Below, piece after piece: positions 19,147 to 21,084 of a stretch of 34,676 nt of DNA. Each line of letters opens with the position of its first letter. The stretch's first letter is position 1. This stretch comes from Zobellia amurskyensis (lineage in GTDB: Bacteria; Bacteroidota; Bacteroidia; Flavobacteriales; Flavobacteriaceae): contig NZ_RCNR01000051.1 in NCBI RefSeq assembly GCF_009725985.1, positions 1 to 34,676 on the forward strand, read 5' to 3'. The notes beneath the pieces are model-generated. The model saw nothing but the letters and a program-made list of their open reading frames with translations. It was not told the DNA's origin and searched no databases. Made by a program: the position numbers and the translations under genes.

Positions 19147-20805
19147 TTAAACCTCTACAGATGCTGTCCTTGCCCGTAGCTCGCCCAAAAACTGATGCAC
19201 TTGGCTCACGGCCATTGAACCTTCGCCCACGGCAGAAGCTACTCGTTTTACGGACCCCTTCCTGACATCGCCTACGGCAAAAAAACCGGGTATACTAGTT
19301 TCTAAAGATTGTGGCTTTCGTTTGATATAAATATCACATTTGTAGAGGTCCTCTTCCTTAATACCCGGACCGGTACACACAAATCCTTTTTCGTCAGTAG
19401 CAACAATGCCCTCCAACCATTCCGTACACGGTTTTGCTCCAATAAATGTAAACAGGTTTGTGATATTCATCTCTGTTTTCTGGCCATCGCTCTTCTCAAG
19501 CACAAGGGACTCTAAGTGATGGTTTCCCTTTAATTCCGTTACCTGAGAATTCAACTGCACATGAATGTTTGGTGCAGCTACTATACGCTGTACTAGATAA
19601 TCACTCATTTTTGAGCCTATATCATCTCCCCTTAAAACCACATGTACTTCTTTTGCATAATCCGCTAGAAACAACGCGGCCTGACCTGCTGAATTTCCTC
19701 CACCCACAACACCTACCAATTCACTTTTACACGCCGAAGCATTCATTCCGGTAGCAGAATAATACACTCCGCTACCTTCAAATTTCTCAATAGTATCAAT
19801 GGGTAATTGTCGATAATTTGCACCCGTAGCCGCCATTAGCGACTTTGCTCTTATAACCTTCCCATTAGTTGCCGAAAGCACAAAATGCGTTCCGGTATGT
19901 TCAATTTTTTCTGCTCGATGGGGAATGGAAATATTACATCCAAATTTTTGTGCCTGTACATATGCTCTATTGGCAAGGTCTCGCCCTGAAATCCCCGTAG
20001 GGAAACCTAAATAATTTTCAATTTTAGAACTTTTACCTGCCTGACCACCAGGTGCGTTACTATCTATTGTAACAACACTCAACCCTTCTGAGGCCGCATA
20101 AACGCTTGCCGCCAAACCAGATGGTCCGGCACCAATGACCAACAGATCAAAAATCTTATCTTCAAAATCCATCAAAACACCCGAAAAACGAGCTACCTCA
20201 TCTAAAGACGGTTTTTTATGTAACTGCCCACCATTACAAATCATAAGAGGCAAGTCATTATCCGAAAGGTCAAAACTTTTGAGTAAACCTTTGGCCTCGT
20301 CGGTTTTATCTACATCCAAGAAATTATACCAGATATAGTTTTTATCCATAAAATCACGGATAGCATAGGCTTCTTTTGAATTGCCCGACCCTACAAGCTT
20401 AATGCCCCCAACAAAATCGTTCAAAATAGTATCTTGTCTTTGTAAAAAAGCATTGAGCAGTAAATCACTAACATTACTATGTTTGGCAATAGCCTCCTTT
20501 AATTTTGCAGGTGTAATCCTTAATAGCTCTGAGCCCGCTTTGGCAACAGCCCGGAACTGTGCTCCTCTGTCCGATAACATGCCGCTATCTCCTGAAAACT
20601 CGTTTTTTGCGTGTGTAACGATTGTTTTCTGCTCATTGTTTGGGTTAAGTATTACTATCTCCCCCTCAAGAACAACGAAAAAATCATATCTCAGTTCACC
20701 CAAATCAAAAACTACGGTCTCTTTACTACAAACTTCAATTTCACCATATTCTTTTAAAATGGCAATGTGACTTTGAGGCAATTCCGGAAATCTAGGGTCA
20801 TTCAT
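19147..20805 (-). CDS. Cyclic-nucleotide-binding domain fused to a thioredoxin-reductase-like flavoprotein lacking CxxC
   Basis: This 552-aa three-part fusion has a CRP-like cyclic-nucleotide-binding fold (about 10-120), a thioredoxin/glutaredoxin-fold linker without a CxxC (about 135-210, only C190), and a thioredoxin-reductase-type module (218-552). In the last, GAGPSG (225-230) binds FAD, PGGQAG (252-257) is intact, GGGNSAG (368-374) binds NAD(P)H, and FFAVGDVR is the C-terminal FAD motif. The redox CxxC of thioredoxin reductase is replaced by S350-A-T-G353. The phosphate cassette GDSGMLSDRGAQFRA is also atypical. I infer an FAD/NAD(P)H oxidoreductase or sensor rather than a disulfide reductase. 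It follows the UBP zinc-finger gene by 3 bases. Confidence 0.9.
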   Translation of the reverse strand: MNDPRFPELPQSHIAILKEYGEIEVCSKETVVFDLGELRYDFFVVLEGEIVILNPNNEQKTIVTHAKNEFSGDSGMLSDRGAQFRAVAKAGSELLRITPAKLKEAIAKHSNVSDLLLNAFLQRQDTILNDFVGGIKLVGSGNSKEAYAIRDFMDKNYIWYNFLDVDKTDEAKGLLKSFDLSDNDLPLMICNGGQLHKKPSLDEVARFSGVLMDFEDKIFDLLVIGAGPSGLAASVYAASEGLSVVTIDSNAPGGQAGKSSKIENYLGFPTGISGRDLANRAYVQAQKFGCNISIPHRAEKIEHTGTHFVLSATNGKVIRAKSLMAATGANYRQLPIDTIEKFEGSGVYYSATGMNASACKSELVGVVGGGNSAGQAALFLADYAKEVHVVLRGDDIGSKMSDYLVQRIVAAPNIHVQLNSQVTELKGNHHLESLVLEKSDGQKTEMNITNLFTFIGAKPCTEWLEGIVATDEKGFVCTGPGIKEEDLYKCDIYIKRKPQSLETSIPGFFAVGDVRKGSVKRVASAVGEGSMAVSQVHQFLGELRARTASVEV

Positions 20806-20808
20806 AAT

Positions 20809-21084
20809 TTAGTATCTAGCTATTTGTTCATCTTGGTAGCACCAAAGCCATCTTTCACCGGGCTCAGCACTACTGATTACCGGGTGGCTACTTGACCCAG
20901 CGTGCTTACTAGCGTGTTGATTAGGCGAACTATCACAACACAGTGTTACACCACAAGTCTGACAAGTTCTTAAATGAACCCAATTGTCACCTGTCTTGAT
21001 GCATTCGGCACACTCGTGCACCTTTGCCTGTTTTACTTCTGTGACCGCATTTAAATGACCACATTTTCGTGCTATTTTTGACAT
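20809..21084 (-). CDS. UBP-type zinc finger protein
   Basis: This 91-aa protein is almost entirely one ZnF-UBP domain, the fold that in eukaryotic deubiquitinases and HDAC6 binds the free C terminus of ubiquitin. The metal ligand set is complete: C8/H10, C25-x2-C28, C41-x2-C44, C49, H57, H61, H67; the aromatic ERWLWCYQDE (77-86) is near the position of the pocket residues. Bacteria lack ubiquitin in general, so the ligand here is unknown. It is the first gene of a two-gene operon with the cNMP/thioredoxin-reductase-like flavoprotein (3 bases apart), and likely partners it. The start is ATG; no -7 consensus was seen. Confidence 0.92.
   Translation of the reverse strand: MSKIARKCGHLNAVTEVKQAKVHECAECIKTGDNWVHLRTCQTCGVTLCCDSSPNQHASKHAGSSSHPVISSAEPGERWLWCYQDEQIARY

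Follow-up and report, generated by a model that had tools for sequence, protein, structure and literature searches.

A UBP-type zinc finger gene and its flavoprotein neighbour in Zobellia amurskyensis: conserved linkage, lost residues and a tentative role

What does a zinc finger of the UBP type (zf-UBP) do in organisms without ubiquitin? The question is raised by two adjacent genes in a stretch of 34,676 nucleotides from Zobellia amurskyensis (Flavobacteriaceae; contig NZ_RCNR01000051.1, forward strand; 'the window' below means this whole stretch). The upstream gene encodes a stand-alone finger and the downstream gene a flavoprotein that combines a cyclic-nucleotide-binding (CNB) domain, a thioredoxin-fold linker and a FAD/NAD(P)H module like that of thioredoxin reductase (TrxR); both lie on the minus strand. 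In public annotation the two are named 'UBP-type zinc finger' and 'cyclic nucleotide-binding domain-containing thioredoxin-disulfide reductase' or 'FAD-dependent oxidoreductase', names whose implied chemistry finds no support in the conserved residues. The layout given in an original prediction for this DNA, a 91-aa finger 3 bases before a 552-aa protein, matches the open reading frames (ORFs) exactly.

The association of the two genes is real and old: it exceeds chance in three phyla, and the genes are adjacent in seven. A redox or signalling role of the pair is likely. More specifically, and at a rough probability of two in five, we read the two genes as one module of a signalling/redox system that is widespread, and in which a gated NAD(P)H flavoprotein of non-dithiol type would be joined by a zinc-finger adaptor that docks on peptides. 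The pair yields simple predictions, for the class of peptide, the class of ligand and the electron acceptor.

Linkage of the two genes

All eight other genomes of the window's genus encode the finger, in each case adjoining a CNB-flavoprotein; since no finger was found in the 28 other genera of the family that were drawn, the pair appears throughout the genus and only patchily beyond it. Further loci were taken from a set of 80 finger loci with flanks of up to 6 kb; these are the best 80 of 591 confirmed stretches, so the set is biased to close relatives, and many of its loci end at contig ends, so absences in it are upper bounds. In the ten Flavobacteriaceae loci of this set, from named or uncultured members (L078, L083-L086, L092, L117, L120, L123, L140), the flavoprotein gene lies beside the finger gene or is clustered with it (10/10), in L078 on the opposite strand. 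The adjacency in other Flavobacteriaceae on which the original prediction relied is therefore conserved. The gap between the two genes measures 0-12 bp in 13 of 14 loci (eight of the same genus and six of named Flavobacteriaceae; L086 gives no reading).

The same genome draws were searched for both proteins (flavoprotein threshold E <=1e-50), and in each of three phyla more genomes hold both than expected (Table 1). The linked finger places in Bacteroidota (22 of 33) compare with about 0.08 expected by chance; 14 of the 22 belong to one family (f37) and the other eight to six families (f1, f17, f22, f24, f43, f55). In many genomes the genes occur apart, most commonly in Actinomycetota and Pseudomonadota. 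Adjacency was also seen in Acidobacteriota (L104, L142, L155), Gemmatimonadota (L093), Verrucomicrobiota (L082, L089) and Myxococcota (L087), with the phylum taken from record titles and the origins given with the tree, and on rhizobial and Rhodococcus plasmids.

Table 1. Co-occurrence of finger and flavoprotein in genome draws, and linkage within 6 kb. Fisher tests of co-occurrence ignore relatedness, and the counts are non-independent; the Bacteroidota draw includes the window's own genome; left out of the counts are one weak finger row in Pseudomonadota (G661) and some short fragments, five of the finger in Actinomycetota and one of the flavoprotein.
Phylum	Genomes	With finger	With flavoprotein	With both	Both, expected	Finger places with flavoprotein <=6 kb	Flavoprotein places with finger <=6 kb
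Bacteroidota	296	32	45	28	4.9	22/33	22/46
Actinomycetota	198	46	44	32	10.2	13/61	12/65
Pseudomonadota	249	7	22	6	0.6	6/7	6/22

Linkage might also arise between stress genes that are carried together by horizontal transfer and do not cooperate directly. The patchy presence of the pair, the 87 plasmid records that hold a finger and the frequent occurrence of each gene without the other fit such an origin; the short same-strand gaps, the adjacency in seven phyla and the finger tree, on which, despite poor resolution, the partner type must change three times or more while the enzyme family stays the same, speak against it, and we regard it as highly doubtful.

A finger encoded on the megaplasmid of Gemmatirosa kalamazoonensis (L039) is 69% identical to that of the window despite the different phylum, and was possibly acquired by horizontal transfer. 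Among phage records the sole match is a partial zf-UBP homologue in Tunturiibacter phage Tunturi_3 (PP885686.1:63854-64006).

Residues of the finger and the flavoprotein

The features of the pair are located in Table 2. The finger scores 42.7 bits against the Pfam zf-UBP family (cut-off 22.7), and its AlphaFold2 model (mean pLDDT 86) has zf-UBP domains as top Foldseek matches (2ida, HDAC6, USP16, USP5), the closest folds being bacterial 2ida (TMq 0.80) and human HDAC6 (0.67). Conservation was read from 159 finger and 145 flavoprotein sequences, which include some genes in both a full and a cut copy because their loci overlap. By the HDAC6 topology, which we assume to hold here, the zinc ligands are C8, H10, C82 and D85; C25, C28, C49 and H57; and C41, C44, H61 and H67. 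Eleven of these positions are kept in 158-159 of the 159 sequences and the twelfth is Asp (141), His (17) or Glu (1); the metal ligands thus hold across homologues, as the original prediction supposed.

In zf-UBP domains that bind the ubiquitin tail, an Arg two residues after a ligand Cys anchors the C terminus. At this place, two residues past Cys49, the finger has D51 (Asp in 157 and Asn in 2 of 159; Arg in USP16 and HDAC6), in an alignment that is ungapped against USP16 (CGR) and ambiguous in gap placement against HDAC6 and USP20. The finger thus lacks the pocket Arg of ubiquitin-tail-binding fingers of the USP5/HDAC6/USP16 type. Three aromatics are kept (W35, 158/159; W/Y/F81, 159/159; Y/F83, 158/159), presumably as part of the pocket. 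An insertion of bacterial type, missing from the aligned fingers of HDAC6, USP16 and USP49, holds R39, invariant in 159/159.

These residues bear on the idea, put forward in the original prediction, that the finger reads a protein C terminus and that the flavoprotein reports the redox state; such free C termini could belong to a protein tag or to fragments left by proteolysis. The fold match to HDAC6 and USP5 and the kept aromatics speak for this idea, and the invariant R39 could stand in for the lost Arg; with Asp in place of the Arg in 157 of 159 sequences, recognition by the mechanism of USP5 and HDAC6 is not supported, and the idea appears weakened. The fingers of USP20 and USP33, likewise acidic at this place, showed no measurable binding of the ubiquitin tail (PMC13376213). 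We consider the idea as a whole very unlikely.

The flavoprotein matches Pyr_redox_2 with 114.9 bits, and its AlphaFold2 model (mean pLDDT 85, with low confidence in the FAD loop 251-270) is closest in Foldseek to AhpF (473 aligned columns, E 2.8e-30) and to thioredoxin reductases. The nucleotide-binding signature NSAGQ is invariant. The linker (residues ~131-215) has no Pfam match at E 0.001; its thioredoxin-like fold, claimed before, is supported by the predicted order of strands and helices together with the Foldseek match to the whole of AhpF. No conserved Cys was found in the linker among the 145 sequences, and position 350, the place of the first Cys in the CxxC of thioredoxin reductase, is Gly, Ala, Ser or Trp and never Cys (0/145). 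The scores also stay below the NCBIfam cut-offs for the TIGR01292 equivalog (230.4 bits against 343.45) and for AhpF (150 bits against 503). Of the thioredoxin-reductase-like module proposed earlier, the FAD/NAD(P)H fold is present, and the CxxC that defines a thioredoxin-disulfide reductase is replaced by SATG. Since both the CxxC and any conserved Cys of the linker are missing, a role as dithiol reductase appears unlikely from these residues.

The finger itself might be a redox-sensing thiol protein that is served by the flavoprotein, with a switchable disulfide between Cys50 and the adjacent ligand Cys49. The extra Cys50 is invariant (159/159; Gly in USP16 and HDAC6), and thioredoxin-like genes adjoin the finger in some clusters. 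On the enzyme's side no Cys is universal: the sole column with >=30% Cys is C359 (118/145), which is kept in 62/62 enzymes with an N-terminal CNB domain, in 49/75 with a receiver (REC) domain (lost in 26/75) and in 7/8 others, and is Phe in the REC enzymes of family f37, the majority of them with a linked finger. The DsbA-like partner in f37 has a single thiol as well, so that a switch of this kind seems quite improbable. C359 as partner of the finger thiol was ruled out by the same Phe. The C-terminal tail of the flavoprotein found no support as a conserved finger ligand; the tails, compared in up to 14 members per class, differ in length and sequence whether or not a finger is nearby.

The DsbA/Thioredoxin_4-like neighbour of the finger carries CPYS or CPFS in 10/10 f37 loci (L019, L021, L023, L025, L026, L028, L030-L033), and its counterpart in L093 carries a two-thiol CPFC.

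The CRP-like sensor fold claimed in the original prediction is present: the domain scores 34.1 bits against PF00027 (cNMP_binding; cut-off 27.5), and its PDB matches include PKG, PKA-R and CRP. In profile alignment the Arg of the phosphate-binding cassette of PKG falls on A82. This Arg is found in 0/56 CNB domains of the flavoproteins and in 5/56 of the histidine kinases described below (three cut CNB pieces dropped; 59 pieces gave 56 distinct), so the domain has the canonical fold and lacks the canonical Arg. From its residues it probably does not bind cAMP or cGMP in the canonical way.

A cyclic nucleotide that binds the CNB domain and switches an enzyme of the thioredoxin reductase type, with the finger as partner, is reportedly the proposal made for such systems in 2011. 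Domain content and neighbourhood fit it, and in most domains the cassette retains its acidic residue at position 73 (Glu in 33 and Asp in 20 of 56); the loss of the cassette Arg and the absence of the first CxxC Cys in 145/145 enzymes argue against it, and in this form it is unlikely.

Table 2. Features of the gene pair; positions are those of the window.
Feature	Positions	Strand	Remarks
zf-UBP protein gene, 91 aa, stand-alone	20809..21084	minus	PF02148 match, E 6.6e-11
Spacer of 3 bp from finger stop to flavoprotein ATG	20806..20808		from ORF coordinates; gap compared in relatives
Flavoprotein gene, 552 aa (CNB, thioredoxin-fold linker, TrxR-like FAD/NAD(P)H module)	19147..20805	minus	
CNB (CRP-like) domain, residues 27-109	20479..20727	minus	without phosphate-binding-cassette Arg (A82)
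Thioredoxin/glutaredoxin-fold linker, residues 131-215	20161..20415	minus	predicted structure and fold match
FAD/NAD(P)H module, residues 219-529	19219..20151	minus	signature NSAGQ at 371-375
SATG, residues 350-353	19747..19758	minus	at the place of the TrxR CxxC
C49-C50-D51 of the finger	20932..20940	minus	ligand, extra Cys, and Asp replacing the ubiquitin-tail-binding Arg

Two wirings of the enzyme and its gene neighbours

The flavoprotein occurs in two ancient forms, with the CNB domain fused directly to it, as in the window, or with a receiver domain, in which case a histidine kinase is usually adjacent. In the 80-locus set, as read with custom module models and E-value limits (Pfam was used to verify examples), 14 loci hold a CNB-flavoprotein, none of them with a kinase, and 23 hold a REC-flavoprotein, which adjoins a histidine kinase with a CNB domain in 22; three further flavoproteins have no recognised N-terminal domain and three loci are fusions of antiporter and finger. 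Loci drawn by the flavoprotein, with flanks of 1.5 kb, gave the same pattern: the kinase part lies beside the REC form in 22/27 loci of one draw and 20/23 of another (the CNB part of the kinase falls inside the flank in 1 of the 22 and 14 of the 20), and beside the CNB form in 0/31 over three draws. The kinase's His is retained in 56/56. On the simplest reading, the CNB sensor would either act directly on the enzyme or signal to it by a relay of kinase and receiver.

Between the CNB and REC forms a single change is found on the enzyme tree (88 sequences, left of 133 after a filter at 80% identity), by which many independent swaps were ruled out. The finger tree, built on 83 columns and poorly resolved, holds seven changes of partner type, at least three of them forced by starred branches, so that the finger seems to have switched enzyme form repeatedly while staying with this enzyme family.

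Among 28 Bacteroidota finger loci, 20 include a cation/proton antiporter gene (fused in 4, beside the finger in 16) and 17 a CNB kinase; Na_H_Exchanger and TrkA_N were verified by Pfam in L019, L024 and L038. In actinobacterial L144, L178 and L193, Na_H_Exchanger and a C-terminal zf-UBP stand in a single ORF by Pfam, and in L146 and L154 the antiporter gene is directly upstream of the finger. Fused forms of the finger, which the original prediction suggested looking for, thus exist with antiporters; among finger ORFs >200 aa none was a fusion with the flavoprotein, the recognised fusions all being to antiporters. On Rhodococcus plasmids the pair stands in a chaperone cluster, grpE-dnaJ-cbpM-clpB-trxA-finger-CNB-flavoprotein with overlapping genes, in all four loci read of 12 (L043, L253, L254, L255); dnaK is present in three, and the fourth stretch starts past dnaK.

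In the 37 finger-only loci, from which 20 neighbour proteins were scanned, DUF5996 was found four times, an antiporter once (plus L154) and all else at most twice; a second general partner of the finger is not established by these counts. The DUF5996 (PF19459) genes adjoin the finger at L097:5425-6372, L106:6337-7245, L148:281-1813 and L151:4822-5952. At L096:5587-5976 a 130-aa protein resembling bacterial globins is encoded after a histidine kinase and ends just upstream of the finger gene; L103 has the same gene lengths and gaps.

In the window itself the neighbouring genes belong, by Pfam, to thioesterase-like, nitronate-monooxygenase-like, alpha/beta-hydrolase and cytochrome c families, and none is an evident partner of the pair. 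A scan for sigma-70-type promoters, which does not cover Bacteroidota promoters, gave 4 matches against 4.6 by chance.

Proposed role and comparison with known systems

In the reading preferred here, the flavoprotein would be an NAD(P)H-dependent FAD enzyme with the fold of TrxR and AhpF that has lost both thiol sites, and with these lost, electrons would pass directly from FAD to a non-dithiol acceptor, such as a quinone-like molecule, O2 or a partner protein. Its N-terminal domain would gate the enzyme, as a degenerate CNB sensor in cis in the window and as a receiver fed by the CNB histidine kinase in the sister form. The zf-UBP would be the adaptor that docks the enzyme on its clients through a short peptide, for which an internal motif of basic character is more probable than a free C terminus; candidates for the clients are the chaperone machinery and cation/proton antiporters. 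The domains, their linkage and architectures and the lost residues are observed, whereas the direction of the signal, the electron acceptor, the adaptor role and the clients are inferred.

A wider version of this reading is possible and more tentative: a pan-bacterial regulatory module built from three borrowed parts, each without its namesake chemistry, namely a sensor of CNB fold for a ligand other than a cyclic nucleotide (in cis or through kinase and receiver), a TrxR-like flavoenzyme without thiols, and a zf-UBP of swapped charge that reads an internal basic motif, as USP20/33 do, and would thereby bring the enzyme to antiporters or chaperones. If this is true, prokaryotic zf-UBPs would be short-motif adaptors outside any ubiquitin system.

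Several observations weigh against the preferred reading. The finger has no match at E 0.001 in the remaining 51 relatives of the draw, which include one genome from each of the 28 genera of the same family, and one genome of that family (G160) encodes the CNB-flavoprotein and has no finger match. Finger genes are unlinked in 48/61 Actinomycetota places, and flavoprotein genes have no finger within 6 kb in 24/46, 53/65 and 16/22 places of Bacteroidota, Actinomycetota and Pseudomonadota; in the 80-locus set, 33 loci hold no module in the flank and four the kinase only. The 20 antiporter-linked Bacteroidota loci come from three families only (f37 16, f43 3, f55 1), and neither an antiporter nor a chaperone gene is among the window neighbours of the pair by Pfam. 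Because the CNB/REC change happened once and was inherited, the kinase pattern does not represent many independent events. At residue level, D51 may be structural, R39 could serve as an alternative carboxylate site through which the finger binds free C termini, and CNB domains without the canonical Arg can bind ligands. No experiment on the pair was found in the literature searched. Of the original prediction as a whole, the conserved unit and its likely redox or signalling role are supported, and the USP5/HDAC6-type C-terminus recognition is not.

The 2011 abstract of Burroughs, Iyer and Aravind reportedly places bacterial ZF-UBP domains in a novel cyclic nucleotide-dependent redox signalling system, with the same finger family and the same kinds of partner, CNB and redox proteins. 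The linkage of a ZF-UBP gene to a CNB/redox protein that marks such a system is found here, so the pair has probably been predicted in outline and is probably not a new discovery; against the literal 2011 name speaks the family-wide loss of the Arg in the CNB domain, the CxxC of TrxR and the pocket Arg of the finger. As far as checked, the residue tests and the tabulation of the two wirings are new. The 2011 paper (Mol BioSyst 7:2261) is cited in PMC4506424, and PMC2602986 lists zf-UBP among bacterial mini-proteins, with no function given. Among the titles and abstract starts listed by searches of a library with few subscription papers, some of the listings covering a part of the matches, none concerned a bacterial zf-UBP/flavoprotein pair.

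The closest known structure is RPA1320 of Rhodopseudomonas palustris (PDB 2ida, a structural-genomics NMR entry whose title states no function), which belongs to the same subfamily as the window finger (E 1.2e-22) and shares its insertion and CCD motif. AhpF and thioredoxin reductase share with the flavoprotein the FAD/NAD(P)H fold and an N-terminal thioredoxin-like domain; unlike them, the flavoprotein has neither the CxxC nor a conserved linker Cys, and carries a CNB or REC domain in front. For the link to antiporters, KefF and KefC offer a possible precedent by analogy, since the flavoprotein subunit KefF is needed for full activation of the antiporter KefC (PMC10224563). As would hold for our pair, a flavoprotein is here teamed with an antiporter of CPA2 type that has a KTN/RCK (TrkA-N) domain; the fold of KefF, an FMN quinone reductase, is a different one, and the antiporter link of our pair is genomic.

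For the docking of the finger, USP20 and USP33 offer a precedent. Their fingers bind the internal motif [KR]xxL[NED], whose basic residue is contacted by E55 (PMC13376213). Like the window finger they have the zf-UBP fold and an acidic residue, not Arg, two past the ligand Cys, and the spacing of E55 from this Cys fits the place of D51; where they have a further acidic residue, D59, the finger family mostly has Lys, Arg or Gln (position 56), so that the likeness is partial. USP20 and USP33 carry the fold as an auxiliary domain of eukaryotic deubiquitinases, whereas the finger of Z. amurskyensis is a stand-alone bacterial protein.

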